A DNA stretch of 40,593 bases from Candidatus Binatus sp. (lineage in GTDB: Bacteria; Desulfobacterota; Binatia; Binatales; Binataceae). Positions 1,940 through 33,658 of this stretch are shown here, in pieces. The notes below the pieces were generated by a model. That model saw nothing but the letters and a program-made list of their open reading frames with translations, was not told the origin of the DNA and did no database searches. The stretch's first letter is position 1, and the number at the start of each line of letters is the position of its first letter. Location: contig NZ_JAUSKL010000011.1 of NCBI RefSeq assembly GCF_030646925.1, positions 1 to 40,593 of the forward strand, given 5' to 3'. The translations under genes were made by a program, and so were the position numbers.

Positions 1940-1955
1940 TGGCACAGGTGATGCT
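1940..1955 (+). promoter_or_regulatory. sigma54 (-24/-12) promoter for the DUF2267 gene
   Basis: TGGCACAGGTGATGCT has the required GG-N10-GC spacing and two mismatches to TGGCACG-N4-TTGCW. The predicted transcript start is about 20 bases before the ATG at 1986. The promoter at 15451 upstream of the paralogous gene has the same two deviations. Confidence 0.75.
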
Positions 1956-1985
1956 GCCTAACAACTGAAACCTCCGGAGAGCACA

Positions 1986-2399
1986 ATGAACGAGAAATCT
2001 TTTGTGCGTGAAGTCGCCACGCTGGCGGACTGCGATGAGCGCCGGGCCGAAACCCTGATTTTTGCTGTCTTCCAGGAGTTGCGCGATCGACTCACCCCCA
2101 ACGAGGCCGCCAAGGTTGCCGCGCAGCTTCCGATCTCGCTGAAAATGCTCTGGATGTCATTTGATCGGCCCGATCGGCAGGTCCGGCGCATTCATGAGCC
2201 CCAGTTCCTCGGCGACGTGGCGCGAATGACCGGACTCGGCTCCGAGGGTGAAGCCAAGCAAGCGGTGGTCGCGGTATTCAGCGCGCTTCAGGATGCTTTG
2301 GGAAGTTCGACCGGGACTACTGGCTTGGCGGGACATCTTATGGGCCAACTTCCTACCGATCTTAAGCAACTATGGCTGGCCACCGGCGGCGAATTTTAG
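1986..2399 (+). CDS. DUF2267 family protein
   Basis: A 137-aa soluble helical protein of the DUF2267 family, whose biochemical role is unknown. The family pattern is clear: RRAETLIFAVFQELRDRLTPNEAAKVAAQLP, summarised by its core FAVFQELRDRLTP and AAQLP, then a second similar half containing AVVAVFSALQDALG and GQLPTDLKQLW. The two halves look like an internal repeat of the same helical unit. Start ATG 1986 follows a CCGGAGAG ribosome site. A paralogue of similar length lies at 14976-15413 on the other strand, and both have a sigma54 promoter of the same type. DUF2267 genes often occur with BON, CBS and Hsp20 genes, as here; that points to a stress role without defining it. Confidence 0.88.
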   Translation: MNEKSFVREVATLADCDERRAETLIFAVFQELRDRLTPNEAAKVAAQLPISLKMLWMSFDRPDRQVRRIHEPQFLGDVARMTGLGSEGEAKQAVVAVFSALQDALGSSTGTTGLAGHLMGQLPTDLKQLWLATGGEF

Positions 2400-2531
2400 A
2401 TCAGTTAGTACAGTTTGGAGACGGTTCGACTACATTTCGTTTTCCCCGAAGAAGTTTCCGACCAAGAGTAAAAGCCTGCTCGCGACGCGTGCTCCCAAAA
2501 ACTGCCGAATTCAACCGGAGGCAGGAGTTTT

Positions 2532-3449
2532 ATGCCCAGTTCATATTCCAATCGGTGGGGACTCGTTCTCGCGGGCGGCGACGGATCGAGACTCAAGTCG
2601 TTCACGAAGAGAATCGCCGGCTACGAACTGCCGAAGCAGTTCTGCCCGATACTCAGCTCTAAGCCTCTGCTCGAGGAAACTATCGATCGGGTCAGCCGAA
2701 TGATTCCACGCGATCGGACCCTGGTTTCGTTGAATCGCGAGCACCGGCGCTTTTACGCCCCGATGTTTCAGGGAGCGGTGAATTCACTGGTAGAGGAGCC
2801 ACGCAACCGGGGAACTGCTCCGGCAATCCTGCACGCTTTGATGCAAATCTGCGAACGATCGCCCTCTGCGATCGTTGGACTGTTTCCTTCCGATCATTAC
2901 TTCGGTAATGAAGCTCGATTTATCGAGTATGTAGGTTCCGCCTTCGACGCCGCCGGTGATTCGGACGACGCGGTAGTGCTGCTGGGAGCGGAAGCTACCG
3001 GTCCCGAACAGGCGTACGGGTGGATCGAGCCAGAGATCTCGCTGACCTCGGCTCAACCGCGTCTGCTCTCTGTGCGGAGCTTTGTCGAAAAGCCCGACGC
3101 CCGACTCGCGAACGACTTATGGCGTAGCGGCGCCCTGTGGAACACCTTCGTACTGGTGGCCCGCGCGTCGGCGCTGATGCAGATGTTCATCCGCGCGATG
3201 CCTCGACTGTACAGTTCTTTCAGCACTGTCCGTCCTGTGCTGGGAACCATGTTCGAGGCCGAGGTGCTGACGCGCCTGTACAACGAGCTTCCGACATCGT
3301 GCTTCAGCGAGGTTGTACTGCAGCGATGCGCCGCGAATTTGATGGTCATGCCGATGCGTGGTGTCGAATGGTGCGATCTTGGCGAGCCCGCGCGAGTAAC
3401 GAAGGTCGCCCGGCAGATAGGAGTCTCTCCCCAGTGGGCGGTCGCGTAA
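2532..3449 (+). CDS. mannose-1-phosphate guanylyltransferase-like nucleotidyltransferase
   Basis: A 305-aa enzyme predicted to make an NDP-sugar, most likely GDP-mannose from GTP and mannose-1-phosphate. The nucleotidyltransferase signature LAGGDGSRL sits at residues 13-21. It is followed by PKQF (sugar/phosphate site), NRGTAPAI, PSDHYF (in place of the usual PADH) and VEKP, then WN before the C-terminal half. The protein lacks the isomerase/cupin domain of bifunctional ManC/AlgA, and it is shorter than typical ManC. ATG 2532 follows a good ribosome site (CGGAGGCAGG). A 132-base gap separates it from the DUF2267 gene, so it may be read through from that sigma54 promoter. Substrate is not certain; glucose-1-phosphate or another hexose phosphate is possible. 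Confidence 0.82.
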   Translation: MPSSYSNRWGLVLAGGDGSRLKSFTKRIAGYELPKQFCPILSSKPLLEETIDRVSRMIPRDRTLVSLNREHRRFYAPMFQGAVNSLVEEPRNRGTAPAILHALMQICERSPSAIVGLFPSDHYFGNEARFIEYVGSAFDAAGDSDDAVVLLGAEATGPEQAYGWIEPEISLTSAQPRLLSVRSFVEKPDARLANDLWRSGALWNTFVLVARASALMQMFIRAMPRLYSSFSTVRPVLGTMFEAEVLTRLYNELPTSCFSEVVLQRCAANLMVMPMRGVEWCDLGEPARVTKVARQIGVSPQWAVA

Positions 3450-3607
3450 TATCGCTAATCGATTATCGCGGGCTTCGCCTCGCGAGGAATGGGCAAACGG
3501 CGAGAGAGCCGTCTCTCGGCGTCCGCTTGAAGAAGCCGCATCCACGTCCGCCGAAGGCACGCCAGCGGCTGTTGGGTTCGTACGTCGACTCAATCGATCG
3601 AGTCGAG

Positions 3608-3721
3608 ATGAGTCTCACGTTCCCACGGACGAAAGTCAGTCCGAAGTGGTGGGACTCCGGATTTATTGTTCCGGTCCTTGCTCTTCTCTGCTGCGTTGCG
3701 GTCGTAGCAATCGTGCTGTGA
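3608..3721 (+). CDS. possible small single-pass membrane protein (37 aa)
   Basis: A short reading frame with a basic N-terminal part (SLTFPRTKVSPKWW) followed by a hydrophobic stretch (FIVPVLALLCCVAVVAIVL) that reaches the C-terminus, as in tail-anchored or small membrane proteins. The ribosome site is weak (GTCGAG). No recognisable family. It lies in the 308-base stretch between the nucleotidyltransferase and the end of the dksA-type gene, where I see nothing else. It could be a chance frame. Confidence 0.3.
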   Translation: MSLTFPRTKVSPKWWDSGFIVPVLALLCCVAVVAIVL

Positions 3722-3757
3722 GGATCAGCGAACTTCGAAGTAGAGCCGGTAAAGGGT

Positions 3758-4342
3758 CTATTTTTTGCGCCCAGGCGTCGGGGTTTTCCGCGCCGACTTG
3801 CGCTTCGCCTGGTTCTCAGGCTCCCCCGGCGGAAGGGGCTGACGAGCAGAGATCGTCAACTGTTCTTCGGGATCGGTGGACTGATATAGGCGATCCGTCG
3901 GGACCTCCATTTCTTCAGGCAGGGTCCATTGGTGATCGAACGGCGCAATTGTGGTTCCTTGACCCCAGCCGCCTCTCGCGCGATGGAGCTCTTTTTGGCA
4001 ATCGACGCAGTACGACGCGAACGGAATCGCCATCAGACGCTCAATCGGAATTGCGCCGCCGCATTTGAGGCATCGGCCATACTTGCCCGCGTCAAGCCGT
4101 GCGAACGCTTCATCGAGGTACCTGAGTTTCTCTTCCGCACGCGCGATCAGTCCTGCGTGAGTTTCGATCTCTTCGGTGGTGCTCGCCGAATCCATCTCGT
4201 CGGCCGGCCCTGCGTCGGACTCTTGCTCCTGGTCTCTTCGGAGATCTATTATTCGCTGCTGGGCTTCTTTGCGAAGCCGGGTCAGCAATTCTCGAAGCAT
4301 CTCGCCACCCTCGATCGGGTCGGTCTTTAGATCGGAACTCAT
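3758..4342 (-). CDS. DksA/TraR family C4 zinc-finger protein
   Basis: A 194-aa member of the DksA/TraR family. DksA proper enters the secondary channel of RNA polymerase and works with ppGpp. Visible features: an N-terminal helical coiled-coil region (LRELLTRLRKEAQQRIIDLRRDQ) and an acidic tip-like segment (DEMDSASTTEE). Next come YLDEAFARLDAGKYGRC and the C4 finger CLKC...YCVDC at about residues 94-115. The extra 70-residue C-terminal tail is unusual: proline-rich, ending in a very basic KRKSARKTPTPGRKK. ATG 4342 follows an AGGAGA ribosome site. It begins 34 bases after groEL stops, so the two are probably one operon. The tail suggests nucleic-acid contacts (inference). It could be a general TraR-like regulator rather than a true DksA. 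Confidence 0.85.
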   Translation of the reverse strand: MSSDLKTDPIEGGEMLRELLTRLRKEAQQRIIDLRRDQEQESDAGPADEMDSASTTEEIETHAGLIARAEEKLRYLDEAFARLDAGKYGRCLKCGGAIPIERLMAIPFASYCVDCQKELHRARGGWGQGTTIAPFDHQWTLPEEMEVPTDRLYQSTDPEEQLTISARQPLPPGEPENQAKRKSARKTPTPGRKK

Positions 4343-4376
4343 TTTAGCATTCTCCTCGCCCTTGGCTGGGTCTCGT

Positions 4377-5993
4377 TCATTCCGGAAGCGCAGTGCCGCG
4401 CTGATTTTTTTCCTCTCGCACTTCCGTCAGGGTCGCTTCGCTGAGCAACAGGAGCGTCGCGGCCGAGGCTGCATTCTCGAGTGCGAGGCGAACCACCTTG
4501 GTCGGATCGATCACACCGGCCTCGACCAGATCGACGTACTTTCTCTCAGCGGCGTCGTAACCCCAGTTGCCCTGGTGTGCCAGCATCTCATGGATGACCA
4601 CGCCGCCGTCTTCGCCTGAATTCTCGGCGAGCTGACGCGCGGGCTCCCTCAGCGCATGCTTGAGGATTTGCAAGCCGGTGCGTTCGTCGCCTGCGCACTT
4701 GTCTTCTTCGCGCTCGACCGCATCGATTGCTCGGAGCAGGGCCAGTCCGCCGCCGGGCACGATCCCTTCGGCAATCGCGGCGCGGGTCGAGCTGATCGCG
4801 TCGTCCAGCGCCTCCTTGCGGCTCTTCATCTCTGATTCCGACGGCGCGCCAACGCGGATGACCGCGACACCGCCGGCGAGCTTCCCGAGCCGCTCTTTCA
4901 GCTTGTCGCGGTCGTAATCGCTGGTGGTCTTGTCGATCTGCTGGCGAAGCTGCTTCTTGCGCGCCTCGATCAATTCCTTCTGGCCGCGACCGCCGATAAT
5001 TTTGGAATTCTCCCGGTCGACGACCACCCTCCGCGCGCGCCCGAGTTCCGCCATCTCCACCTTCTCAAGCTTTATCCCGACATCCTCAGAGATCACGCGC
5101 CCGCCGGTCAGAATCGCGATGTCTTCAAGCATCTCCTTGCGGCGATCCCCGAACCCAGGCGCCTTGACCGCGATGCACTTCAGAGCACCGCGGAGCTTGT
5201 TGACCACCAGCGTAGCCAACGCCTCGCCATCAATGTCCTCAGCGATAATCACGAGAGCCTGTCCGGCGCGAACGATCTGTTCCAGCAACGGAACCAGATC
5301 CTTCATCACGCTGATCTTCTTGTCGGTGATAAGGATTACCGCATCTTCCAGTACCGCCTCCATTTTTTCGGGATCGGTAACAAAGTAGGGCGACATATAT
5401 CCTCGGTCGAAGGCGAGCCCTTCAACGATCTCGAGTTGGGTCTCGGTGGTCTTGGATTCTTCGAGCGAGACGACCCCCTCGGCTCCGACCTTCTCGAACG
5501 CATCGGCGACCAGTTCACCGATCGTTAGATCATTGTGCGCGGAGATGGCTGCTATCTGAGCCTTCTCCCGGCGGCTCTGCACCGCCTTCGATAAGCCGCG
5601 CAAAGACTCGACGGCGATCTTGATTCCGCGGTCGATACCGCGCTTCAGATCGATCGCGCTCGCGCCCGCAGCTACGTTGCGAACGCCCTCTGCAAAGATC
5701 GCGTAAGCGAGAATCGTGGCGGTGCTGGTACCATCACCAACCGCATCGCCGGTGCGCTCGGCGGCTTGCCGGATCATCTGGGCGCCGAGATTCTCGCAAG
5801 GATCCTTGAGCTCGACTTCCCTGGCGATCGTGACGCCGTCGTTGCAGACTACCGGCACCCCGAAACTCCTCTGGATGAGGACGCACTTGGACTTTGGCCC
5901 CAGCGTGATTCTGACGGCGTCAGTCAACGCTTTTGCACCACGGAGGAGGCGTTCCCGAGCCTCCGACTGAAAATGCAGTTCTTTATACGCCAT
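4377..5993 (-). CDS. groEL: chaperonin GroEL, divergent stress-cluster paralogue
   Basis: A 538-aa group I chaperonin that folds proteins in an ATP-driven double ring. Starts MAYKELHF, a canonical GroEL beginning, with a GAGGG ribosome site; an upstream in-frame start (MRGCQ) is less likely. ATP-site signatures are present: ITLGPKSKC near residue 30, GDGTSTAT (GDGTTTAT in most) and the catalytic Asp of the [15 protein letters not shown] segment, followed by VPGGG. It departs from housekeeping GroEL in several ways: many substitutions in otherwise invariant N-terminal blocks, a charged C-terminus ([15 protein letters not shown]) instead of the GGM-rich tail, and no groES beside it. The neighbours hsp20, BON and dksA suggest a stress-specific copy, with the housekeeping groESL elsewhere (inference). 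Confidence 0.95.
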
Positions 5994-6025
5994 CTGGCAC
6001 CCTCGCAACTTAGCTAGTGCGCGCT

Positions 6026-6060: not shown

Positions 6061-6068
6061 AAGCAACG

Positions 6069-6725
6069 CTAGTCGTTTGAATACCTGACGGTCAGTCGAT
6101 TCTCGACCTCGGCCACGCCCGGTGCGGCCCAAGCCGCCGTCTCCGCCTCGTGTAGTTCGGCCCAGGAGCGGACGGTTCCGCGAAGAATGACCTTGTCGTC
6201 GTGAGCCTCGACCGAGATCTGGCGTGCGTCAATCTGGGCGCTCCGCTTAAAAGCCTGTTCAATCTGACTGCGGACCTCTATCGGTATCACCTTGGGCGCT
6301 ATGACTATCGCATTTCTGACCCCTTTTACGCCCGCAAGATGCCGGACTACACGTTCGGCTGACGATTTCTGATAGTACCAGTCAACCTTTCCCTCTAGGG
6401 TGATCCAACCTTGCTTCACGATGACTTTAACGTGGTCCGGAGGTATGGTTGCATCGACTTTAAGTGCTAATGCCGCGGCCTGAGCGATATCGGTGTCAGT
6501 CCGTTCGTTGCTGAGCCTTACCTCAATGTCGTTGGCCAATCCCACTACGCCTGCGACGCGCTTTGCAATCCGCTCTGCTCGCCACTTTTCGCTGTAGTTG
6601 GACACTTGGCCAGTCAGGGTAACTACGCCATTCTTTCCGGAAACGCCAATGTCGCGGGCGTCAATGCTCGGATCCCACTGAAGTTCCATCTCTACGTCGC
6701 GACGCAGTTCGTTGTCAGTTTTCAT
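6069..6725 (-). CDS. triple BON-domain protein
   Basis: A 218-aa protein built of three BON repeats, each with the pattern (V/I)xxGxVxLxGxVxxxxxxxxAxxxxxxxxGVxxVxNxI. Repeat 1 is around GVVTLTGQVSNYSEKW, repeat 2 around GWITLEGKVDWYYQKS and repeat 3 around DKVILRGTVRSWAEL. BON domains are thought to bind phospholipid membranes or act in osmotic protection (OsmY family). There is no signal peptide, unlike periplasmic OsmY. Start MKTDNEL (ATG 6725) has AAGGAG nine bases upstream; the ATG six codons earlier overlaps that site and is less likely. It lies between hsp20 and groEL, probably in the same transcript. A second, diverged three-repeat BON gene sits at 14237-14968. Confidence 0.9.
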   Translation of the reverse strand: MKTDNELRRDVEMELQWDPSIDARDIGVSGKNGVVTLTGQVSNYSEKWRAERIAKRVAGVVGLANDIEVRLSNERTDTDIAQAAALALKVDATIPPDHVKVIVKQGWITLEGKVDWYYQKSSAERVVRHLAGVKGVRNAIVIAPKVIPIEVRSQIEQAFKRSAQIDARQISVEAHDDKVILRGTVRSWAELHEAETAAWAAPGVAEVENRLTVRYSND

Positions 6726-6824
6726 GTTCATCCGCTCCTTCATGGAAGAAGACCTGCTCGAGCCTCAACCAGGAAATGCGGTCCTCTGTCCACCATTTTG
6801 CCATCTCACAAGCCTGACTAAATA

Positions 6825-6977: not shown

Positions 6978-7448
6978 CTACTTCCTGGAAATCTCGACGT
7001 TCTTTTCTGCTTCGGCCTCGATCGGCACCTTCGTCGCCACAGTCTCCTTCGCCAGCGGAACAGTGATCTCGAGAACTCCGTTCTTGAAACTGGCTTTGAC
7101 CTGGTCGGCGGCTGCTCCTTCGGGCAGGCTCATCCGGCGCTCGAAGGCGCCGTAAGAAACCTCGCGCCGCAGGTAATCTTCCTTTTTCACCTCTTGCTCG
7201 CTCTTGCGTTCGCCCTTGACGCTGAGGATGTTGCCCAGAATGGTGACCTCGATGTCTTTGAGCTCCAGGCCCGGCACATCCGCGCGCACGACGAGATTGC
7301 CTTCCTTCACGAAGCTCTCGATGGCCGGCGTGAAGACCTCATCGTAGTTATCCTCGAAGTCCTCGAAGATGCGCGGGAAAGTCGATTCCCAGCGTCGCGC
7401 CATCCGTTGAAGATCCCGAAACGGTCTCGCAAGGAATAGTGCTCCCAT
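6978..7448 (-). CDS. small heat shock protein, Hsp20/alpha-crystallin family
   Basis: A 156-aa ATP-independent holdase that binds unfolding proteins. The alpha-crystallin domain (about residues 45-140) contains VRADVPGLELKDIEVTI, of which PGLELKDIEV is diagnostic, then ILSVKGERKSE and RREVSYGAFERRMSLPEG. It ends with the FKNGVLEITVP block that carries the conserved G-V-L triad. The IXI-type tail is a weak VPIEAEAEK. Start ATG 7448 has GGAGG seven bases upstream; that GGAGG overlaps the upstream in-frame ATG (MEDRR), which is therefore unlikely. A strong sigma54 promoter lies 60-80 bases upstream. It is likely the first gene of an hsp20-BON-groEL-dksA operon. Confidence 0.95.
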   Translation of the reverse strand: MGALFLARPFRDLQRMARRWESTFPRIFEDFEDNYDEVFTPAIESFVKEGNLVVRADVPGLELKDIEVTILGNILSVKGERKSEQEVKKEDYLRREVSYGAFERRMSLPEGAAADQVKASFKNGVLEITVPLAKETVATKVPIEAEAEKNVEISRK

Positions 7449-7510
7449 TCTTCTGTCCTCCATATTTGATTTTTTTGTGTGACGGGAATGGTTCAGTCGT
7501 CACTAGCTTC

Positions 7511-7526
7511 AGCAAGCAACGCGCCA
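7511..7526 (-). promoter_or_regulatory. sigma54 promoter for hsp20
   Basis: On the minus strand TGGCGCGTTGCTTGCT matches TGGCACG-N4-TTGCW at every defined base but one. The expected transcript start leaves a leader of about 50 bases before ATG 7448. Confidence 0.82.
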
Positions 7527-7566
7527 TCCAAATTCAGGCGACTGGAAACGAAGCATCGCCAAGCGA

Positions 7567-7583
7567 TGTAGCCGATCGCATCA
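7567..7583. promoter_or_regulatory. candidate enhancer dyad between hsp20 and the small-ORF/ppsA operon
   Basis: TGTAGCCGATCGCATCA differs at two positions from the site at 31079 and fits TGNNNC-N5-GNNNCA. It is 40 bp upstream of the hsp20 -24 element and lies between two divergent sigma54 promoters. Confidence 0.5.
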
Positions 7584-7599
7584 CCGCGCCAGGACCCGC

Positions 7600-7616
7600 T
7601 GCTGCCAATGGACCCA
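7600..7616. promoter_or_regulatory. second candidate enhancer dyad in the same intergenic region
   Basis: TGCTGCCAATGGACCCA fits TGNNNC-N5-GNNNCA. Its start is 33 bp (about three helical turns) from the start of the first dyad and its end is 118 bp upstream of the -24 element at 7735. It resembles the 31079 site less than the first dyad does. Confidence 0.35.
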
Positions 7617-7734
7617 GCGACCGCCGCAAGGGGCACTCGCGCGCTTGTCAGCCACGGCTGCCCGACTAGGGTCATGCATCGAAACTCTTGCCACAGAGGC
7701 GCGTATTGGGGGAGCACGATCCGCCATGCTGGGT

Positions 7735-7750
7735 TGGCATGGCAGTAGCT
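7735..7750 (+). promoter_or_regulatory. sigma54 promoter for the small-ORF/TPR/ppsA operon
   Basis: TGGCATGGCAGTAGCT has GG-N10-GC spacing and two mismatches to consensus. It overlaps a small inverted repeat, GCCATGC-N7-GCATGGC (7723-7743), which could hold a competing regulator. The predicted start is about 13 bases before the ATG at 7774. Confidence 0.65.
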
Positions 7751-7773: not shown

Positions 7774-7956
7774 ATGCCCGTGAATGTGGTTAGAACGCGC
7801 GAGGAGGAGATCGCGTGGGAGCGCGCAAAGGCTCGCGCTCGCGAAGAATATCCCGACGCTACGGGCGAACGCTTCTATCGAATCGTGATGGCCATCTACA
7901 AGAAAATGGCCCATTACCAGCCCCAATCCGCGCGCCATCACCGGAGTGCGCGCTAG
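7774..7956 (+). CDS. small hypothetical protein, likely conserved (60 aa)
   Basis: A highly charged 60-residue protein beginning MPVNVVRTREEEIAWERAKA, with FYRIVMAIYKKM near the end. I recall similar small proteins in metagenomic genomes with the pattern xWxxAKxxAxxxYP...FxxVMxIYKxM, but none has a known function. It has a good ribosome site (CAGGAGGATTC) ten bases before ATG 7774. A nearer ATG at 7769 is out of frame and stops after four codons. It follows directly after a sigma54 promoter, as the first gene of a plus-strand series reaching ppsA. The helical, charged composition suggests a protein- or nucleic-acid-binding adaptor (inference). Confidence 0.7.
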   Translation: MPVNVVRTREEEIAWERAKARAREEYPDATGERFYRIVMAIYKKMAHYQPQSARHHRSAR

Positions 7957-8835: not shown

Positions 8836-8852
8836 GTGGAGGATATAGCAAG

Positions 8853-11264: not shown

Positions 11265-11286
11265 AGGCCCAATGGGAGGCCCAGTC

Positions 11287-13278: not shown

Positions 13279-13309
13279 CTGTCCACGAGTAGGCCGACGG
13301 AAATACGAG

Positions 13310-14212: not shown

Positions 14213-14236
14213 GTATTGCGCGGGCTTAACCTGCGG

Positions 14237-15450: not shown

Positions 15451-15466
15451 AGCATGGCATGTGCCA
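15451..15466 (-). promoter_or_regulatory. sigma54 promoter for the DUF2267-BON operon
   Basis: On the minus strand TGGCACATGCCATGCT has GG-N10-GC spacing and two mismatches, at the same positions and to the same bases as at 1940. The leader would be about 27 bases. I found no matching enhancer dyad within 200 bp upstream. Confidence 0.72.
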
Positions 15467-15528: not shown

Positions 15529-16077
15529 CTACGGGACTCGTTTGCCGCCAACGATCGCGACGGTGCTCGCCTGCGGACCTTCGTCGCCTTCCTCCTCGGC
15601 AAAGCGCACCGCAGTTCCTGGCGTCAGATCGTCGAAATGCTCATGCAGGACACTGTGGCGATGGAAATAGATCTCGCGATTATCCTCCGTCTCGAGGAAG
15701 CCGTACCCTTCCTTCGCGAAAATGCGGGCAACGCGGCCCACCGACGGCAGCTCGTGCGCCTTTACGTCGCGTCTGAGCTCGCGAAGATGATCCTCGATGC
15801 GACGCCGGGCGGCATCGAATGAATCTCTGATCGCGATGGCCAAATCATCGGCCTCCTGCCGGTCGACCGAGATGTCCGCCCCGGGCACCCGGAGATCAAT
15901 CCGCACATTGAACGGGCCTCCTTTGCGGTGGTGATGAACCGGCGCTTCGACCACGACGTGGCATCCGGTGAGCCGTGGGAAGTAGAGCTGAAGATCGTCG
16001 GCGCGTTCGCGGATCTGCGCCTCCATGGCCGGGGTCAACTGGAAATCGCGTGAAGTAATTTGAAGCGGGCGCTGCAT
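15529..16077 (-). CDS. ribosome hibernation-factor-like S30AE domain fused to a cold-shock domain
   Basis: A 182-aa fusion. Residues about 1-105 are an S30AE/HPF-RaiA domain (PLQITSRDFQLTPAMEAQI, then CHVVVEAPVHHHRKGGPFNVRIDL, here noted by HHHRKGGPFNVRIDLRVPG). Such proteins bind the decoding region of idle ribosomes. Residues about 115-182 are a cold-shock/OB fold with VGRVARIFAKEGYGFLETED, of which GYGFLETED and EIYFHRHSV are the two RNA-binding motifs. The YFHRHSV segment normally reads FFH.S. The protein replaces the dimerising C-terminal domain of long HPF with an RNA-binding one, so its mode of ribosome inactivation may differ. ATG 16077, with a sigma54 promoter some 50-65 bases upstream. 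Confidence 0.93.
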   Translation of the reverse strand: MQRPLQITSRDFQLTPAMEAQIRERADDLQLYFPRLTGCHVVVEAPVHHHRKGGPFNVRIDLRVPGADISVDRQEADDLAIAIRDSFDAARRRIEDHLRELRRDVKAHELPSVGRVARIFAKEGYGFLETEDNREIYFHRHSVLHEHFDDLTPGTAVRFAEEEGDEGPQASTVAIVGGKRVP

Positions 16078-16125: not shown

Positions 16126-16141
16126 TGCATCGGATGTGCCA
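16126..16141 (-). promoter_or_regulatory. sigma54 promoter for the hpf-csd gene
   Basis: On the minus strand TGGCACATCCGATGCA has GG-N10-GC spacing and two mismatches, the same deviations as the two DUF2267 promoters. The 426-base region 16078-16503 holds this site, a dyad and a divergent sigma54 promoter; I see no convincing gene in it. Confidence 0.73.
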
Positions 16142-16267: not shown

Positions 16268-16284
16268 TGTATCCGAACGCAACA
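16268..16284. promoter_or_regulatory. candidate enhancer dyad shared by hpf-csd and cbs promoters
   Basis: TGTATCCGAACGCAACA differs at two positions from the 31079 site. It lies 126 bp upstream of the hpf-csd -24 element and 52 bp upstream of the cbs one, between divergent promoters. Confidence 0.55.
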
Positions 16285-16336: not shown

Positions 16337-16352
16337 TGGCATGACCGATGCT
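16337..16352 (+). promoter_or_regulatory. sigma54 promoter for the CBS-domain gene
   Basis: TGGCATGACCGATGCT has GG-N10-GC spacing and two mismatches. The predicted leader is about 140 bases before ATG 16504, longer than the others. Confidence 0.65.
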
Positions 16353-20159: not shown

Positions 20160-20175
20160 TGGCACTCGGTCTGCT
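20160..20175 (+). promoter_or_regulatory. sigma54-like promoter with no immediate gene
   Basis: TGGCACTCGGTCTGCT has GG-N10-GC spacing and two mismatches. It is 180 bp upstream of the better-placed promoter at 20340 and would give a leader of about 205 bases. It may be an alternative promoter, or drive a small RNA. Confidence 0.5.
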
Positions 20176-20215: not shown

Positions 20216-20232
20216 TGTGTCCTTCGGGAACA
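20216..20232. promoter_or_regulatory. candidate enhancer dyad 1 for the hydrolase-PRT gene
   Basis: TGTGTCCTTCGGGAACA is close to a perfect palindrome and fits TGNNNC-N5-GNNNCA. It is 107 bp upstream of the -24 element at 20340. Confidence 0.5.
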
Positions 20233-20339: not shown

Positions 20340-20355
20340 CGGCACGCCTGATGCA
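20340..20355 (+). promoter_or_regulatory. sigma54 promoter for the hydrolase-PRT gene
   Basis: CGGCACGCCTGATGCA has GG-N10-GC spacing with GGCACG exact. The upstream-most in-frame ATG (20351) lies inside this -12 element, so transcripts starting about 20366 would exclude it. This favours translation from 20393. Confidence 0.7.
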
Positions 20356-26890: not shown

Positions 26891-26929
26891 TTCGGGCGCA
26901 GCAAGACGTGACTCGAATGGCTACGGCTC

Positions 26930-26946
26930 TGTATCCAATCGCACCA
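26930..26946. promoter_or_regulatory. candidate enhancer dyad upstream of pncB
   Basis: TGTATCCAATCGCACCA differs at only one base from the 31079 site, 4.1 kb away. It lies 61 bases before the pncB start. I could not find a -24/-12 element between it and the gene, so it may act as a repressor or act on another promoter. Confidence 0.45.
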
Positions 26947-27007
26947 GTATCTGGATCACAATATCGAGGGTAACATCTGGAACAGCCTCCTCTGATCGAG
27001 AACCGTC

Positions 27008-28439: not shown

Positions 28440-28455
28440 TGGCACATCTCGTGCT
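28440..28455 (+). promoter_or_regulatory. sigma54 promoter for prs
   Basis: TGGCACATCTCGTGCT has GG-N10-GC spacing and two mismatches. It sits in the 83-base pncB-prs gap with a leader of about 29 bases. No dyad was found within 150 bp upstream. Confidence 0.62.
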
Positions 28456-28494: not shown

Positions 28495-29433
28495 ATGAAT
28501 CTCGTTATCGTAGCCGGCTCCGGAAACCCGTCGCTTGCCGACTCTATTGCCGAAAGGCTCGGCACCCGGGTCGCCCGTTCTTCTCTGAACCGATTTCCCG
28601 ACACCGAGCTACACGCAGCGCTGGACGAAAGCGTGCGAGGCTGCGATGTTTACGTGGTTCAGCCGACCGGTCCTCCGGTAGATCTTCACTTGATGGAATT
28701 GCTCTTCCTCGCTGACGCCTGCCGGCGGGCAGGTGCAGCCCGCCTTTCCGCCATCGTTCCATACTTCGGATATGCGCGCCAGGATCGCCGGGCAAAGGGG
28801 CGGGAAGCGGTTGGCGGGCGGCTGATTGCGGATATGTTGTCAGGGGCCGGCTTCGAGCGAATTGTCGCCCTCGATCTTCATACCGTTTCACTCGAGGGCT
28901 TCTTCAGCATGCCACTGGAGCACCTGAGTGCGGTATCGCTCTTTGCAAATGCGATCGAGGAATTGGTCACTGACAAGAGCGTAATCGTCGCGCCAGACCT
29001 GGGGGCGGTCAAGCTCGCCGAAAGCTATGGGGAACTGCTAGGCCGGCCGATCGCGATTGCCCACAAGACCCGCCTGAGCGGCGAAGAAGTAAGAGTGCGT
29101 GGCATCGTTGGCGAGGTCGCCGGACGCGCGCCGATTATCGTGGACGACATGATCTCGACCGGCGGCACCATCGAGGCAGCCGCGGCCGCTATGATTGCCG
29201 CCGGGTGCCTGCCCGAGATCACGGTGGTTGCCAGCCATGCATTGCTGGTTGGCTCCGCGATCCGCCGGCTTTCAGCTTTGCCGCTGAAACGAATCGTGGT
29301 GACTGACAGTCTGCCAACTCCAGAGCACGGTTCGCTTCCGCTGCAGGTAGTGAGCGTTGCCCCCATGCTCGCCGAGACATTGAGTCGCCTGAACATTGGC
29401 GAGTCGATGACCGAACTGCTGAGCCACCGATAA
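28495..29433 (+). CDS. prs: ribose-phosphate pyrophosphokinase
   Basis: A 312-aa enzyme making PRPP from ribose-5-phosphate and ATP. Characteristic blocks: NRFPDTELHAALDESVRG (where most enzymes have F.DGE), QPTGPPVDLHLMELLFLADACRRA, shortened to PVDLHLMEL, PYFGYARQDRR (ATP/ribose site), ALDLHTVSLEGFF (catalytic loop region) and the PRPP loop VDDMISTGGTI. The DTE for DGE change in the ATP-binding loop and the altered DLHTVSLEG suggest a divergent, perhaps specialised, isozyme rather than the housekeeping copy. ATG 28495 lacks an obvious ribosome site. It has its own sigma54 promoter, so PRPP supply to pncB may rise under stress. Confidence 0.94.
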   Translation: MNLVIVAGSGNPSLADSIAERLGTRVARSSLNRFPDTELHAALDESVRGCDVYVVQPTGPPVDLHLMELLFLADACRRAGAARLSAIVPYFGYARQDRRAKGREAVGGRLIADMLSGAGFERIVALDLHTVSLEGFFSMPLEHLSAVSLFANAIEELVTDKSVIVAPDLGAVKLAESYGELLGRPIAIAHKTRLSGEEVRVRGIVGEVAGRAPIIVDDMISTGGTIEAAAAAMIAAGCLPEITVVASHALLVGSAIRRLSALPLKRIVVTDSLPTPEHGSLPLQVVSVAPMLAETLSRLNIGESMTELLSHR

Positions 29434-30146: not shown

Positions 30147-30953
30147 TCAGTCCTCTGCAGTCAGCGCGTCGAGCACGTCAGTGGTGGTGATTACGCCGAT
30201 CAGCTTGCCGTCTTCGACTACCGGGAGTGCTCCGATCTTGCGCTCGCGCAATAGACGAGCCGCGTCGCGGACCGTAGTCGAGGGAGTCACGGTTATAAGC
30301 GCTTCGCTCATCGCCTTGAACGCCTCGGTGTGCTCCAGATAACCGATGTGATTGCGGATATCGCGATCGGTAACGATTCCGACCGGGACGCCGTCCTTGA
30401 GGATCGGTACGCAGCGGAATCCGCCTTCAAGCATCTTGTTGTGAACTGAGGAAAGCTTTTCCTCGGGGGCGGCCGTAACCGGATTTCGGGTGATCCAGGA
30501 GCCGACCAGGTATTTTTGCGGCGCCGTGTACCGCACCGTCAGCACCGGGCAGGTTGACTCGCGCAAGACAAGTTCCGCGACGCTGCCAAGCAGAAAGCGT
30601 GAAAAGCCTCGACGACCGTGCGTAGCCATCACGACTAGATCGGCGCGGGTCTTTCTCTCGGCGTTGAGTATAGCCCCAGCCGGCTCACCGACAGGCGTCA
30701 GTAGTTCGTACTTGATGCCGGCGAGTCGCTTACGAGCGATCTCTTCGAGCTTCCCACGCGCGGTCTCTTCCTGGCCCTTGTACAGATCGACATATCCGAC
30801 CATCCCGGCGGGCGGGACAATCATCGGCACTATGTGGATGACGAACAGTGTGCCGTCGTTTTGGCGTACAATGTTCGCCGCAGTGTCAAGCGCCTCAAGC
30901 GAGTTGTCATCGAAGTCCACCGGGCAAAGAATATTGCGAAACGGGAACGCCAT
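30147..30953 (-). CDS. universal stress protein domain fused to tandem CBS domains
   Basis: A 268-aa fusion. Residues about 1-145 form a USP fold with ILCPVDFDDNSLEAL and the ATP-binding motif MATHGRRGFSRFLLGSVAELVLRESTCPVL, identified by THGRRG and LGSVAE. Residues about 150-268 hold two CBS motifs (VGSWITRNPVTAAPEEKL with PVGIVTDRDIRNHIG; ALITVTPSTTV with KLIGVITTTDVLDAL). Both halves bind adenine nucleotides in their families, suggesting an energy sensor. ATG 30953 has GGAGG eight bases upstream; that GGAGG overlaps an in-frame TTG at 30968. A sigma54 promoter lies upstream and faces rtcB. Confidence 0.94.
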   Translation of the reverse strand: MAFPFRNILCPVDFDDNSLEALDTAANIVRQNDGTLFVIHIVPMIVPPAGMVGYVDLYKGQEETARGKLEEIARKRLAGIKYELLTPVGEPAGAILNAERKTRADLVVMATHGRRGFSRFLLGSVAELVLRESTCPVLTVRYTAPQKYLVGSWITRNPVTAAPEEKLSSVHNKMLEGGFRCVPILKDGVPVGIVTDRDIRNHIGYLEHTEAFKAMSEALITVTPSTTVRDAARLLRERKIGALPVVEDGKLIGVITTTDVLDALTAED

Positions 30954-30989
30954 AATCGTTTCCTCCAAATCTGAAAGTCAGCTTGGTCT

Positions 30990-31005
30990 AGCGAGACACA
31001 TGCCA
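30990..31005 (-). promoter_or_regulatory. sigma54 promoter for usp-cbs
   Basis: On the minus strand TGGCATGTGTCTCGCT has GG-N10-GC spacing and two mismatches. The leader would be about 26 bases to ATG 30953. Confidence 0.68.
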
Positions 31006-31078
31006 AAACGCTCAGTCGGATTTTTCAGCCCAGAACATCCCAAGGCGATGAACTTGGATGACCCTGATCTATCTATGT

Positions 31079-31095
31079 TGTATCCGATCGCACCA
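31079..31095. promoter_or_regulatory. candidate enhancer dyad shared by usp-cbs and rtcB
   Basis: TGTATCCGATCGCACCA is the most central version of the shared dyad TGNNNC-N5-GNNNCA. It lies 73 bp from the usp-cbs -24 element and 93 bp from the rtcB one. Confidence 0.6.
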
Positions 31096-31188
31096 TTTCA
31101 CGAAACGCGTGGGCCGATCGGACCCGATCGATGGCGCATCTCATCTCGAAAATCATGCACAACTCACTAAGATTGGTCTCATCCTGGG

Positions 31189-31204
31189 TGGCAGGCTGAT
31201 TGCA
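31189..31204 (+). promoter_or_regulatory. sigma54 promoter for rtcB-archease
   Basis: TGGCAGGCTGATTGCA matches TGGCACG-N4-TTGCW with a single mismatch. The leader is about 44 bases. The E. coli rtcBA operon is also sigma54-dependent (established). Confidence 0.82.
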
Positions 31205-31258
31205 CCTTGAGTCTGCGTATCCGGAGGCATGACCGGATGATTCGCCTCAGGCAGAAGT

Positions 31259-32695
31259 ATGGACCTGATCAAACTAAACGATCATCTGTGGGAGATTCCG
31301 CAAACCGGCGCAATGCGCGTACCCGGGCGAGTTTATGCCAACGCGAGGATGATCGAACAAATGCGGGACGATCCGGCCCTCACGCAGGTTGCCAACGTTG
31401 CCTGTCTGCCGGGAATCGTCGGCTACTCCCTGGCGATGCCCGACATCCATTGGGGCTACGGCTTCCCCATCGGCGGGGTGGCGGCCGTCGATGCCCATGA
31501 AGGTGTCATATCGCCAGGAGGAGTCGGTTACGATATCAATTGCGGCGTGCGCCTGGCGCGCACGAACCTGCATTTCAATTCAGTCGAACCGAAAATAGAC
31601 CGGCTTGCCGACGCGCTCTTCAACAAGATTCCGGCCGGCGTCGGCTCTTGGGGCGCGATACCGGGATTGTCGATTGGGCAACTCAAGGACGTGGTGCGTG
31701 ACGGCGCCAAGTGGGCGCTTCGCAACGGATATGCTACCGAACGCGACCTTGAACATACCGAGGAAGGCGGCAGGCTCCCGGGCGCGGACCCCGACCGCAT
31801 AAGCGAACGTGCCTACCAGCGCGGTTCGAAGCAACTCGGCACGCTCGGCTCGGGCAATCACTTTCTCGAAGTCGGCCGGGTCGATGAGATCTATGACTCG
31901 AAGCTCGCCGACGCGTTGGGTCTCGAACTCGATCAGGTCACGATTATGATCCACTCGGGCTCGCGCGGCCTAGGCCATCAAACCTGCGATGACCATCTCA
32001 AAGTTATCCTTGGTGCGATGGCCCGTTACGGAATCAGCTTGCCGGATCGCCAGCTCGCCGCCGTTCCAATCAGCTCGGCGGAAGGGCAAGCGTATCTCGC
32101 TGCCATGGCCGCAGCCGCGAACTTTGCCTGGTGCAACCGGCAGGTAATGATGCATCTCGCCGAGCAGGCGTTCCTGGAAGCGCTTTCGATCACACCGAAA
32201 GAGCTAAACTTCGAGCTGGTGTATGACGTCTGCCACAATATCGCCAAATTTGAAGAACACACTGTGGATGGCCACAAGCGACTCGTCTGCGTACATCGCA
32301 AAGGCGCCACCCGCGCATTTGGCCCCGGCCACGCCGCGTTGCCTGAGGCACTGCGTCCAGTTGGGCAGCCCGTGCTGATACCCGGAGACATGGGCCGCTA
32401 TTCGTTCGTCCTGGTGGGCCTTGAAACCGCGATGCGCGAGACTTTCGGCTCATCGTGTCACGGCGCTGGACGATTGATGAGCCGAACGAAAGCAAAGAGA
32501 GAGGTCGGCGGGCGCGACCTGCGCGCCGAATTAAAGGCGCTGGGTGTTACAGTCAGAGCCCACACCCGCGCCGGTATCGCCGAGGAGATGCCGCACGCCT
32601 ACAAGGACGTCGCCGAGGTGGTTGAGGTCATGGAAGCCGCACGCGTAACTCGACGAGTCGCGAGACTCAAGCCTTTTGCCGTCATCAAAGGCTGA
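31259..32695 (+). CDS. rtcB: RNA-splicing ligase RtcB
   Basis: A 478-aa GTP- and Mn2+-dependent ligase joining RNA 2',3'-cyclic phosphate (or 3'-phosphate) ends to 5'-OH ends, used in RNA repair. Metal ligands are visible in PGGVGYDINCGVRL (Asp/Cys), GSGNHFLEVG (His) and MIHSGSRGLGHQ (His). The guanylylated histidine is in SCHGAGRLMSR, and YDVCHNIAKFEEH is the conserved block before it. Full length (E. coli RtcB is shorter). ATG 31259 follows CAGGCAG. Its stop overlaps the archease start by one base. No RtcR-type CARF regulator lies next to it; the sigma54 promoter and dyad are upstream. Confidence 0.97.
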   Translation: MDLIKLNDHLWEIPQTGAMRVPGRVYANARMIEQMRDDPALTQVANVACLPGIVGYSLAMPDIHWGYGFPIGGVAAVDAHEGVISPGGVGYDINCGVRLARTNLHFNSVEPKIDRLADALFNKIPAGVGSWGAIPGLSIGQLKDVVRDGAKWALRNGYATERDLEHTEEGGRLPGADPDRISERAYQRGSKQLGTLGSGNHFLEVGRVDEIYDSKLADALGLELDQVTIMIHSGSRGLGHQTCDDHLKVILGAMARYGISLPDRQLAAVPISSAEGQAYLAAMAAAANFAWCNRQVMMHLAEQAFLEALSITPKELNFELVYDVCHNIAKFEEHTVDGHKRLVCVHRKGATRAFGPGHAALPEALRPVGQPVLIPGDMGRYSFVLVGLETAMRETFGSSCHGAGRLMSRTKAKREVGGRDLRAELKALGVTVRAHTRAGIAEEMPHAYKDVAEVVEVMEAARVTRRVARLKPFAVIKG

Positions 32696-33144
32696 TGCCG
32701 ACGAAACCGACTACGACCCAGACCGAGGACGACGCTCTATTTCGGGAATTCGAGCACACCGGCGACATCGGTATCGAATTGACTGCTCCCACTCGCGCCG
32801 AGCTGTTCCGCCGCGCGGCCATTGCCTTGGCTGCGCTGTTGGTCGAGAGGGCAAGCGTCGCGGAGATCGAGCAGCGGGAAATTGCAGTTGAGGCCGACGC
32901 CGATCTCGATCTCATGCATGACTTGCTCGGGGAGTTGCTCGCTCTTTTCACAGTGGAGGGGTTCATCTGGCGCGACGCTTCGGTCGAGGAGGCCGATCGA
33001 TCTCTCCGCGTGACGGTTCGGGGCGAACCCTTTGACCCCGGTCGCCACGAATTCCGCGGTGAAATCAAAGCTGTCACTTACCATCAACTGATGGTCGAAA
33101 ACTCACTGGACGGGTGGCGTTCACGCATAATTTTCGACGTTTGA
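32695..33144 (+). CDS. archease, RtcB activating protein
   Basis: A 149-aa protein of the archease family, which speeds multiple turnover of RtcB by assisting guanylylation. Visible: REFEHTGDIGIELTAPTRAELF (the HTGDIG block), DLDLMHDLLGELLALF and the C-terminal EIKAVTYHQLMVE then WRSRIIFDV. The catalytic-type Asp/Glu in HTGDIG and in the KAVTYH block fit the family. The ATG overlaps the rtcB stop (TGATG), so the two are translationally coupled. The N-terminal TKPTTTQTEDD is a short extension. Confidence 0.95.
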   Translation: MPTKPTTTQTEDDALFREFEHTGDIGIELTAPTRAELFRRAAIALAALLVERASVAEIEQREIAVEADADLDLMHDLLGELLALFTVEGFIWRDASVEEADRSLRVTVRGEPFDPGRHEFRGEIKAVTYHQLMVENSLDGWRSRIIFDV

Positions 33145-33176
33145 AACCGGGCGATAGCACGGTTGTGAAGCGGAAG

Positions 33177-33383
33177 TCAGTCTTCAGTTCCAGCAGCGAC
33201 GAGATAGACCGAACCGTCGGGCAGGCGATACGCCTGGGTGTACGGAGACCATCCTTCGATGGGTTCGATTAGTTGGGGCTCTCCTTCGATCGCATCCAGT
33301 AGTTCTTCCCAATCTTCGACCTCAGCGTCCGGAATTCTGTGGTAGCTGCCGTCTCGCTCAAAAACCATTAGACATTGGATCAT
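33177..33383 (-). CDS. small hypothetical protein, likely conserved (68 aa)
   Basis: A 68-residue acidic protein: MIQCLMVFERDGSYHRIPDA, an EVEDWEELLDAIE helix, and a C-terminal WSPYTQAYRLPDGSVYLVAA. It has no known function; I recall similar small proteins in uncultivated soil bacteria. AGAGAGG eight bases upstream selects ATG 33383 over a GTG at 33392. A decayed copy of the C-terminal part occurs at 38871. It is convergent with archease and lies next to the 345-base gap before the envelope operon. Confidence 0.72.
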   Translation of the reverse strand: MIQCLMVFERDGSYHRIPDAEVEDWEELLDAIEGEPQLIEPIEGWSPYTQAYRLPDGSVYLVAAGTED

Positions 33384-33542
33384 CGATGGCACCTCTCTTC
33401 ATCGTCGGCAGGCATTTCTATTTCTTTGTATCGTCTCGGCGTAACGAACGATGTCGGACTCGCACCTACAAATCAGCACATGACCCTCGGCGAAGGCAAG
33501 TTATGCTTTGTGCGGAATGGAACCATCGGATCAAGCCGACAG

Positions 33543-33559
33543 TGCCTCGATCGGCGTCA
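33543..33559. promoter_or_regulatory. candidate enhancer dyad upstream of the envelope operon
   Basis: TGCCTCGATCGGCGTCA fits TGNNNC-N5-GNNNCA, 83 bp upstream of the -24 element at 33643. It matches the pattern but only loosely the 31079 sequence; TGTGCGGAATGGAACCA at 33509-33525 is another loose match. Otherwise I see nothing in the 345-base gap 33384-33737 except the promoter. Confidence 0.35.
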
Positions 33560-33642
33560 GCAGAGATCTCAGCGTTCGGGTTGGTCCGCCTTCGAGCCTC
33601 AAGTTTCCCGATATCCTGCTCAAGTCCGGTTTAGGAAGCGGC

Positions 33643-33658
33643 TGGCACGGGTGATGCT
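33643..33658 (+). promoter_or_regulatory. sigma54 promoter for the envelope operon
   Basis: TGGCACGGGTGATGCT matches TGGCACG-N4-TTGCW with one mismatch. The predicted leader is about 68 bases before ATG 33738. Confidence 0.82.

Follow-up and report, generated by a model that had tools for sequence, protein, structure and literature searches.

Gene Content and Organization of the Locus

The window (the whole stretch of DNA that was analyzed, 40.6 kb in length) harbors at its edge, as the first-pass annotation had indicated, the gene of a sigma54 activator, i.e., an enhancer-binding protein (EBP), followed by genes for chaperones, a hibernation-factor-like protein, universal stress (USP) and CBS proteins, phosphoribosyl metabolism, RNA repair, and the cell envelope. 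These genes are interspersed with sigma54 promoter sites and with copies of a predicted upstream activator site (UAS), as reported in Table 1.

Table 1. Genes, sigma54 promoters, and predicted activator sites (UAS) in window order. Distances in "start" remarks run from promoter to start codon.
Feature	Position	Strand	Remarks
Sigma54 promoter TGGCACAATTGCTGCT	180..195	-	15.9 bits
Sigma54 activator (EBP), 514 aa	253..1797	+	Sigma54_activat 3.8e-64, AAA_lid_14, HTH_8 (Pfam)
UAS TGTCTCCATCGGAAACA	254..270	+	19.7 bits; overlaps EBP start codon; 67 bp from promoter 180(-)
UAS TGGCGCTTTACGATACA	1861..1877	+	17.8 bits; 71 bp upstream of 1940
Sigma54 promoter of DUF2267 gene	1940..1955	+	16.6 bits; start 30 bp on
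DUF2267 gene	1986-2399	+	Pfam
DksA-like gene	3758-4342	-	Pfam; same strand, after Hsp20/BON
GroEL gene	4377-6008	-	Pfam; same strand, after Hsp20/BON
Protein with three BON domains	6069-6743	-	Pfam
Hsp20	6978-7463	-	Pfam
Sigma54 promoter of Hsp20	7511..7526	-	14.6 bits; start 47 bp on
UAS pair between divergent 7511(-) and 7735(+)	7567-7583, 7600-7616		20.2, 14.6 bits
Sigma54 promoter of 60-aa ORF, then TPR, PpsA	7735..7750	+	13.9 bits; ATG 23 bp on
60-aa ORF	7774-7956	+	GGAGG ahead of ATG
TPR protein	gene block begins 8074	+	Pfam
PpsA-like PEP synthase	8832-11264	+	Pfam
PCMT fused to erythromycin-esterase-family domain	11272-13278	+	Pfam
BON protein	14237-14968	-	Pfam
DUF2267, second gene	14976-15413	-	Pfam
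Sigma54 promoter of second DUF2267 gene	15451..15466	-	16.6 bits; start 37 bp on
Hibernation-factor-like (Ribosomal_S30AE) plus cold-shock domain (HPF-CSD)	15529..16077	-	Pfam
Sigma54 promoter of HPF-CSD gene	16126..16141	-	17.2 bits; start 48 bp on
UAS TGTTGCGTTCGGATACA between divergent 16126(-) and 16337(+)	16268..16284	-	20.5 bits
Sigma54 promoter of CBS-pair gene	16337..16352	+	16.2 bits; start 151 bp on
CBS-pair gene	16504-17100	+	
Distal sigma54-like site ahead of hydrolase-PRT gene	20160..20175	+	14.3 bits
Weaker UAS TGTGTCCTTCGGGAACA	20216..20232	+	12.2 bits; 116 bp upstream of 20340
Sigma54 promoter of hydrolase-phosphoribosyltransferase (hydrolase-PRT) gene	20340..20355	+	13.9 bits; assumed start 28 bp on
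Hydrolase-PRT gene	start about 20384, end 21721	+	Pfam
UAS, strongest of the window, ahead of NAPRT	26930..26946	-	24.1 bits
NAPRT	27008-28411		downstream of UAS 26930
Sigma54 promoter of Prs	28440..28455	+	15.3 bits
Prs, then cytochrome c gene	Prs 28495-29433	+	
USP fused to two CBS domains (USP-CBS)	30147..30953	-	Pfam; ORF opens 30968, likely start 30953
Sigma54 promoter of USP-CBS	30990..31005	-	14.3 bits; -12 variant CGCT
UAS TGGTGCGATCGGATACA between divergent 30990(-) and 31189(+)	31079..31095	-	23.8 bits
Sigma54 promoter of RtcB and archease	31189..31204	+	14.5 bits; start 54 bp on
RtcB	31259-32695	+	Pfam
Archease	32695-33144	+	Pfam
Weak UAS TGCCTCGATCGGCGTCA	33543..33559	+	10.7 bits; 92 bp upstream of 33643
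Sigma54 promoter of envelope operon	33643..33658	+	17.1 bits; start 73 bp on
Envelope operon: uncharacterized ORF, polysaccharide deacetylase, DUF4015, beta-lactamase-family/NamZ fusion	33732-38874	+	Pfam

The Hsp20, BON, GroEL, and DksA-like genes might belong to a single operon, and the TPR, PpsA, and PCMT genes might lie on one transcript starting from 7735. The earlier list of targets needs one correction, in that PpsA is not the next gene after 7735, from which it is separated by the 60-aa ORF and the TPR gene. The end of another contig (C111) is 96.2% identical to positions 1-425 of the window and carries a gene with a hemerythrin match in Pfam; by this comparison, 180(-) probably drives a hemerythrin-domain gene. 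The predicted targets of the regulon comprise USP, CBS, Hsp20, DUF2267, BON, HPF, Prs, and RtcB, and probably PpsA and hemerythrin.

Density and Placement of the Sigma54 Promoters

The first-pass annotation had placed twelve -24/-12 sites in the window, and a pattern check found every one of them at its position and on its strand, with a single mismatch each at 7511, 31189, and 33643 and two in the remaining sites. A thirteenth site, 180(-), with two mismatches, had been overlooked; no other place in the window keeps GG-N10-GC with two mismatches or fewer. When scored with a hand-made sigma54 matrix based on the general consensus, 13 sites of the window reach at least 13.8 bits, versus a mean of 0.95 and a maximum of 5 in 100 dinucleotide shuffles. 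Twenty 20-kb stretches of the same genome, 400 kb in total, contain 9 such matches, or 0.91 per 40.6 kb; this background sample is, if anything, match-rich, since the stretches were hand-picked from contigs already met in the analysis. The density in the window is thus about 14 times that of both the sampled genome and the shuffles. Two findings that had been named in advance as speaking against these promoters were not made: shuffled sequence does not equal the window, and rpoN is not absent, the genome having one match of 209 bits.

All 13 sites fall within the 5,538 intergenic bases (13.6% of the window) delimited by hand-curated genes. The automatic gene caller puts three of them (180, 7735, and 33643) within called ORFs, which we judge to be spurious or mis-started; with the same caller, 4/9 background matches are intergenic. 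The natural distances to the next gene, formerly attributed to all sites but 20160, apply to ten sites (23-73 bp); 16337 is also far from its gene, and 20160, which is the weakest functional case among the sites, lies 208 bp ahead of the hydrolase-PRT start codon. The start codon downstream of 180(-) is a guess.

It might be argued that the cluster arose by chance, or that the GGN10GC words play another role (sigma70, structural elements). Relaxed patterns are only mildly enriched, one free mismatch giving 16 matches versus 7.98, a value reached by 2 of 100 shuffles. The 43 genomic occurrences of the strict pattern TGGCAYN6TGCW (18 for its reversed control) include eight on this contig, which makes up 0.9% of the assembly; 22 of the 35 matches elsewhere were inspected, and 15 of these lie within a called ORF. 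Set against the density, the intergenic position, the start-codon distances, the independent upstream site, and the promoters conserved ahead of USP-CBS genes (the last two described below), this explanation appears extremely improbable.

The Activator and Its Predicted Site

The EBP is composed of an N-terminal domain (about residues 28-164), an AAA+ domain, and a Fis-type HTH, with the motifs GESGTGK, GGTLFLDE, and RQDLYYR (Walker A/B, arginine finger) in addition to HTH_8. The loop that in EBPs usually reads GAFTGA is GAFSGA here and in 19/19 homologues, and the recognition helix ISRKKLYAKI is shared by 16 of these 19. Among the 16 activator matches listed for the genome, 13 are strong, one being that at the island edge; paralogues of the EBP are located on contigs C75 and C78.

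A motif search in the activator loci of relatives disclosed a second element, a 17-bp near-palindrome of about TGNYKCGATCGGATACA. This form emerged after a palindrome with a four-base spacer, TGTWTCC-N4-GGAWACA, had been discarded, most promoters scoring no better than random fragments. The sole exact-dyad candidate, CATC-N7-GATG, is found upstream of just 4/13 promoters and was also rejected. In an earlier motif run, 5/31 regions came from the own genome and the shuffled controls were lighter than the real search (15 restarts and 30 rounds versus 40 and 60); for this reason, the case is based on a matrix trained without the own genome, using upstream regions chosen by hand, 26 in all, from 14 relatives. 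These regions were picked from the listed sigma54 sites near activator loci, some neighbors and near-copies being dropped, and two of the 26 yielded no site.

With this matrix, a site of at least 10 bits is located 49-160 bp upstream of 10/13 window promoters, versus 2.0/13 for random intergenic positions, and none of 20,000 random intergenic draws reached this number. Such sites are present in seven of the nine intergenic regions, and eight of the 13 promoters have one of at least 14 bits. At the latter threshold, the window contains 7 sites versus 0.73 in shuffles, while the own-genome sample contains 3 in 400 kb, none of them intergenic. Promoters 15451, 20160, and 28440 have no UAS of at least 10 bits, and no sigma54 match of at least 5 bits lies at 26880-27060, around the UAS at 26930. 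A scan of the own genome for sites and promoters revealed that the regulon reaches other contigs; a sigma54 site of at least 12 bits is near 8 of the 15 matches to the site pattern and absent from 7. The site is also found at the C111 hemerythrin-domain gene and at an acetyl-CoA hydrolase gene on contig C59.

Conservation in Relatives

Homologues of the EBP were found in 36/76 genomes (the own genome and one broken fragment being counted), and the sensor domain in 4 of 198 genomes drawn from the phylum, own included. The site follows the activator: its copies average 5.6 in 20 activator-bearing genomes outside the training set (control pattern 1.5) and 2.1 in 40 genomes devoid of the activator (control pattern 1.95), with P 4e-4, the genome of the fragment with a stop (G002) being set aside. 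When the comparison is confined to the own family, the association becomes borderline (18 vs. 7 genomes, P 0.05); these P values are optimistic because the genomes are related, and some activator-less genomes have up to 8 site matches.

These data bear on the possibility that the promoters are real but divided among, or shared by, several activators (the C75 paralogue or others of the 13), the edge EBP playing a partial role and 15451, 28440, and 20160 answering elsewhere. Three of the 13 promoters are siteless and two have weak sites, and the C75 paralogue, whose sensor region is 50% identical, has sigma54 sites at its own locus; indeed, either paralogue could be the true regulator. However, a single motif occupies most of the intergenic regions and the number of sites follows the presence of the edge-EBP family, so that control by several activators seems unlikely, although it deserves more credit than a chance origin.

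Many EBP homologues in relatives are adjoined by sigma54-driven USP-CBS or CBS genes. A sigma54 promoter precedes 13/21 USP-CBS genes of relatives among the matches listed (one locus per genome; the own locus and 8 further, mostly partial ones excluded), and 11 of these 13 promoters have the site, five of the 11 lying outside the training regions. For DUF2267 the promoter is found at 9/22 relatives' loci (22 of 26 rows used, two own and two fragment or sub-cut-off rows being excluded). For RtcB it occurs at 1/25 relatives' loci and is missing in 24/25 (counted over 26 of the 30 matches listed, with the own locus among them; the other 4 were partial or distant).

Relatives of the same genus retain many island genes (63-98% protein identity, mostly 84-95%), RtcB following Prs in four genus-mate loci. 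The Prs promoter is present in 3/4 genus-mates, at the same distance, and that of HPF in 1/3, the HPF gene of locus L209 being unplaced; no promoter was detected in genus-mates at DUF2267 (0/4), u33732 (0/4), hydrolase-PRT (0/3), RtcB (0/4), or Hsp20 (0/1). As judged from these sequences, regulon membership appears plastic: many genes of the island are present in genus-mates, yet few promoters are kept. This makes it a case of regulatory rewiring within one genus, with shared genes and differing promoters.

The density versus controls, the placement, the independently learned site, the USP-CBS linkage, and the co-occurrence thus lend strong support to the proposal of a sigma54 stress regulon that has a dedicated activator. 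The island is not a fixed unit.

A Proposed Model for the Regulon and Its Sensor

We consider it likely that the edge activator controls, through TGNYKCGATCGGATACA-like enhancer sites, a sigma54 regulon whose core is the island. The EBP would sit on the 17-bp site, about 50-160 bp upstream of the -24/-12 promoters, and three divergent promoter pairs would each share a single site or pair of sites. Upon stress or energy limitation, it would remodel the sigma54 polymerase and jointly switch on the chaperone, ribosome-hibernation, USP/CBS, phosphoribosyl, RNA-repair, and envelope genes. Against this mechanism count the siteless promoters 15451, 20160, and 28440, the weak sites of 33643 and 20340, the strongest UAS, which is without a sigma54 promoter, and the absence of most promoters in genus-mates.

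As for the signal, the sequence of the N-terminal domain suggests a distant protoglobin/RsbR-like fold. Protoglobin (PF11563) is its best family (1.4e-4, 22.3 bits, below the curated cut-off of 25) and matches 7/20 homologues at E values up to 1; RsbRD_N matches two of the 20 weakly, and Rsbr_N one. The Pfam search of the EBP gave no STAS, receiver, or CARF domain, and no solved structure matched the sensor region significantly in a profile search, the top score going to an unrelated calcium-binding protein. The EBP might be a haem-based O2/NO sensor, and the regulon a purely low-oxygen one, analogous to NmpRSTU of Myxococcus but with a single component. Besides the family match, this agrees with the USP and CBS targets, with the sites at the C111 and C59 genes, and with the hypoxic control of CBS, USP, and hemerythrin genes by NmpR described in PMC11841059. 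Against it, the residue opposite the GEIH histidine of 7o0i_B is Leu107, invariant in 20/20 homologues, in an alignment that is non-significant and with a histidine whose role is putative; the accessible part of PMC9237108, on the Vibrio vulnificus stressosome, holds nothing that fixes this role. We regard haem sensing as improbable. Since the domain is distantly related to protoglobin/RsbR and seemingly without the haem histidine, the regulon would more probably respond to stress or the redox/energy state through a non-haem globin-like domain, as in Bacillus RsbR, rather than to haem-bound O2.

A broader reading, which we put forward tentatively and regard as somewhat doubtful, is that of a one-component sigma54 general stress response, in which a stressosome-type, non-haem globin-like sensor fused to an AAA+ activator commands a dormancy and low-energy program of at least 13 island promoters plus operons elsewhere, with sigma54 replacing sigmaB/RpoS/EcfG in the family and promoters freely gained and lost around conserved genes. 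The nitrogen-independent dormancy or stress regulon initially suggested would fit the gene content and the likeness to low-oxygen regulons.

Comparison with Known Systems

Sigma54 is best known for nitrogen, motility, and dedicated catabolic operons. RsbR, composed of an N-terminal globin domain and a STAS domain, acts in the stressosome complex by partner switching. A 2025 survey (PMC12316311) treats a sigma54 stress role as well established in Pseudomonadota and, for Planctomycetia, names UspA as well as GroEL and small-heat-shock clusters, so that predicted sigma54 promoters ahead of individual stress genes have already been published. A literature search found no paper joining four of the five topics sigma54, Hsp20, hibernation, dormancy, and universal stress, and no precedent for pairing a globin-like stress sensor with a sigma54 AAA+ domain was found among the best-ranked open-licence papers. 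If true, both this coupling and a compact stress/dormancy island possessing a dedicated activator and enhancer site would be new, and the island would provide a testable target list for a lineage whose named relatives are all MAGs (4/4).

A close likeness is with NmpR of M. xanthus (PMC11841059), which also combines sigma54, a dedicated EBP, and an inverted-repeat enhancer, with CBS, USP, and hemerythrin targets and a protoglobin domain in the signaling chain. In NmpRSTU, however, a haem-requiring protoglobin is carried by a histidine kinase and NmpR is a phosphorylated response regulator, whereas in the island a globin-like domain appears fused to an EBP without a receiver domain; the NmpR site, GCGCA-N5-TGCGC in pairs, differs from that of the island, and its regulon comprises 7 promoters and 23 genes, versus 13 promoters in one island. 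RsbR of the Bacillus/Vibrio stressosome (PMC4976288) also has a globin-type stress sensor at its N terminus, which in Bacillus is non-haem, but is a stressosome component, while the sensor-like domain of the island is joined to an AAA+ sigma54 activator. Enterobacterial RtcR-rtcBA likewise places the RtcB RNA ligase under sigma54, although RtcR has a CARF domain and the island EBP is shared with stress genes. Lastly, the lxa locus of Burkholderia cenocepacia (PMC6127331), for which the accessible text names no sigma54 promoter or activator, contains six USPs and resembles the island in being a large cluster with several USPs, a heat shock protein, and a BON-domain protein.

Predicted sigma54 promoters of the window

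The cluster of sigma54 sites described in the first-pass annotation proved to be real, and its reading as a stress regulon is well supported. All twelve of its -24/-12 sites were found at the same positions and strands and with the same numbers of mismatches; the count itself was incomplete, as a site of equal quality, 180(-), brings it to thirteen. A hand-made matrix, built on the sigma54 consensus, assigns 13.8–17.2 bits to the 13 sites, versus a mean of 0.95 sites (maximum 5) at the same score in 100 dinucleotide shuffles of the window. With curated genes, all 13 are intergenic, in 13.6% of the window; the automatic gene caller places three of them inside ORFs considered spurious or mis-started. 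Twenty 20-kb control stretches, drawn by hand from contigs of this genome that had come up in the other analyses, contain 9 matches in 400 kb, the chance level, and the densest 20 kb holds nine sites in the window versus two in the best control stretch; with a relaxed pattern the difference is far less striking (16 versus 8). The strict pattern has 43 matches genome-wide, eight of which fall on the contig corresponding to the entire window (0.9% of the assembly); 22 loci among the 35 matches outside it were inspected, and 15 of these lie within a called ORF.

The distance to the next gene, said to be natural for all sites except 20160, is 23–73 bp for most of them (the start codon used for 180(-) is a guess), and extends to 151 bp at 16337 and 208 bp at 20160. 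The first ORF after the 7735 promoter encodes 60 amino acids and has a clear GGAGG.

Coordinates of individual features in the window and on other contigs of the same assembly
Feature	Contig (locus)	Position	Description
Activator gene	window	253–1797(+)	Sigma54 AAA+ domain and Fis-type HTH
Next-best sigma54 match	window	26057(-)	12.0 bits; precedes triosephosphate isomerase; excluded from the 13
Strongest 17-bp site	window	26930–26946	Before NAPRT
Fusion ORF	window	11272–13278	Protein-isoaspartate methyltransferase and erythromycin-esterase-family domain in a single ORF
Left end	window	1–425	96.2% identical to C111 end
Contig end	C111 (L100)	5088–5513	96.2% identical to window left end
Second divergent module	C42 (L211)	13018–14727	Hsp20, activator site, right-hand promoter
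SurA-like/DsbA-like fusion	C34 (L108)	353–1471	SurA-like N-terminal domain fused to DsbA-like thioredoxin domain; activator site adjoins

A putative 17-bp enhancer site

The predicted sigma54 regulon is probably run by the activator encoded at the island edge, through a 17-bp near-palindrome. An EM search disclosed a motif common to the upstream regions of sigma54 sites near activator homologues, whose likelihood at width 17 was 161.5 versus 53–62 in three shuffles; the relatives set included 5 own-genome regions out of 31, and the shuffled controls received fewer restarts (15 versus 40) and rounds (30 versus 60). The window alone yielded a related motif of width 15 (77.9 versus 37–39). Own-genome sequence was excluded from the training of a width-17 matrix, for which 26 upstream regions of 14 relatives were used. 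In the window this matrix finds seven sites of at least 14 bits, versus 0.73 in shuffles (maximum 3), and in the 400 kb of own-genome control it finds three. A predicted site of at least 10 bits is located within 30–170 bp of 10/13 promoters (none was found at this threshold and distance for 15451, 20160, and 28440), and one of at least 14 bits for 8/13; random intergenic positions give averages of 2.0 and 1.3, respectively, and the observed number was reached in none of 20,000 draws. Since three divergent promoter pairs have sites in common, the proportion is 7/9 when independent regions are counted. No sigma54 promoter was found near the 26930 site, which may belong to a promoter that has decayed or serve as an enhancer from a distance.

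Activator homologues occur in 36/76 genomes (including the own genome and one broken fragment), and in only 4/198 drawn across the phylum, the own genome among them. Site matches are more numerous in the 34 activator-bearing genomes (own excluded) than in the 40 without (P = 8e-7). Once the 14 training genomes are removed, the means are 5.6 (n = 20, range 1–19; control pattern 1.5) versus 2.1 (n = 40, range 0–8; control 1.95), with P = 4e-4; these P values are optimistic because the genomes are related. Within the own family the comparison is borderline (5.4, n = 18, versus 2.4, n = 7; P = 0.05), and for this reason confidence both in the regulon and in the one-component response discussed below was set slightly lower. 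In one activator-bearing relative of a different family the site pattern occurs 13 times (control 6), versus 1, 1, and 4 times in its three family-mates, all without the activator.

The activator and its sensor-like domain

The AAA+ loop, which in sigma54 activators usually reads GAFTGA, is GAFSGA in all 19 activators examined (that of the window and 18 homologues), and 16 of these 19 share an identical HTH helix, ISRKKLYAKI. The sole family match of the N-terminal region is Protoglobin, below the cut-off (E = 1.4e-4); among 20 homologues, matches at E up to 1 are to Protoglobin (7/20), RsbRD_N (2/20), and Rsbr_N (1/20). The homologue profile gave no significant match to solved structures: the top-ranked entry, a calcium-binding protein (E = 0.26), is unrelated, and second comes chain 7o0i_B, an "anti-anti-sigma factor" (profile positions 11–150 of 184; E = 0.36). 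In the latter non-significant alignment, Leu107, invariant in 20/20 homologues, is opposite the GEIH histidine. According to PMC4976288, Vibrio brasiliensis RsbR binds haem via a proximal histidine and Bacillus RsbR is without the residues needed for haem. On the basis of this comparison and of Leu107, a non-haem globin-like sensor is the favoured reading of the domain. That the whole represents a one-component sigma54 general stress response, with such a sensor fused to the activator, is a tentative suggestion.

In its regulation, the known system that comes nearest is NmpR of Myxococcus, which shares sigma54, a dedicated enhancer site, and CBS, USP, and hemerythrin targets; it belongs to a hypoxia system in which a haem-dependent protoglobin kinase acts upstream (PMC11841059). 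In gene content, the nearest cluster is the low-oxygen-activated locus of Burkholderia (PMC6127331). Neither, as described in the accessible parts of these sources, unites the island, a fused sensor-like domain, and this site.

Gene content and conservation of the island

The Pfam families of the window include DUF2267, NTP transferase, DksA-like zinc finger, GroEL, BON, Hsp20, TPR, PEP synthase, a PCMT-erythromycin-esterase fusion, an S30AE-cold-shock protein, CBS pairs, PolX-like, MFS, hydrolase-phosphoribosyltransferase, alpha-glucan phosphorylase, triosephosphate isomerase, CDP-alcohol transferase, NAPRT, Prs, cytochrome c, USP-CBS, RtcB, archease, polysaccharide deacetylase, DUF4015, a beta-lactamase-NamZ fusion, and a second DUF2267-BON pair.

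Among the matches listed (one locus per genome), a predicted sigma54 promoter precedes USP-CBS in 13/21 relatives; the 17-bp site accompanies it in 11/13, five of the 11 being outside the training regions, and 10/13 have CGCT or CGCA as their -12 element. The corresponding proportions are 9/22 for DUF2267 and 1/25 for RtcB. In four genus-mates the island proteins are 63–98% identical (mostly 84–95%), and sigma54 sites are found only before Prs (3/4) and HPF (1/3), being absent before DUF2267 (0/4), the first gene of the envelope operon (0/4), hydrolase-PRT (0/3), RtcB (0/4), and Hsp20 (0/1). Since the genes are shared and the promoters mostly are not, regulon membership appears to be plastic. 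In the genus-mate loci (L203–L209), many shared stress genes form clusters whose gene order differs and which mostly have no sigma54 sites; these clusters represent a natural comparison for regulatory rewiring.

The predicted regulon beyond the window

In the own genome a degenerate form of the 17-bp site is matched 15 times, five of them in the window (control pattern 5); a sigma54 site of at least 12 bits lies near 8/15 and is absent near 7/15. Outside the window, such pairs of a 17-bp site and a sigma54 site occur on contig C42, at a second Hsp20 promoter region and at an AMP-binding/2-oxoacid-dehydrogenase gene row, on C59, at an acetyl-CoA hydrolase gene, and on C111, at a hemerythrin-domain gene.

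The sites of the C42 module closely resemble those of 7511–7735, and its Hsp20 is just 39% identical. On C111, the hemerythrin-domain gene is divergent from an activator; given the identity between the end of this contig and the window left end within one assembly, the two would be strain variants or a duplicate.
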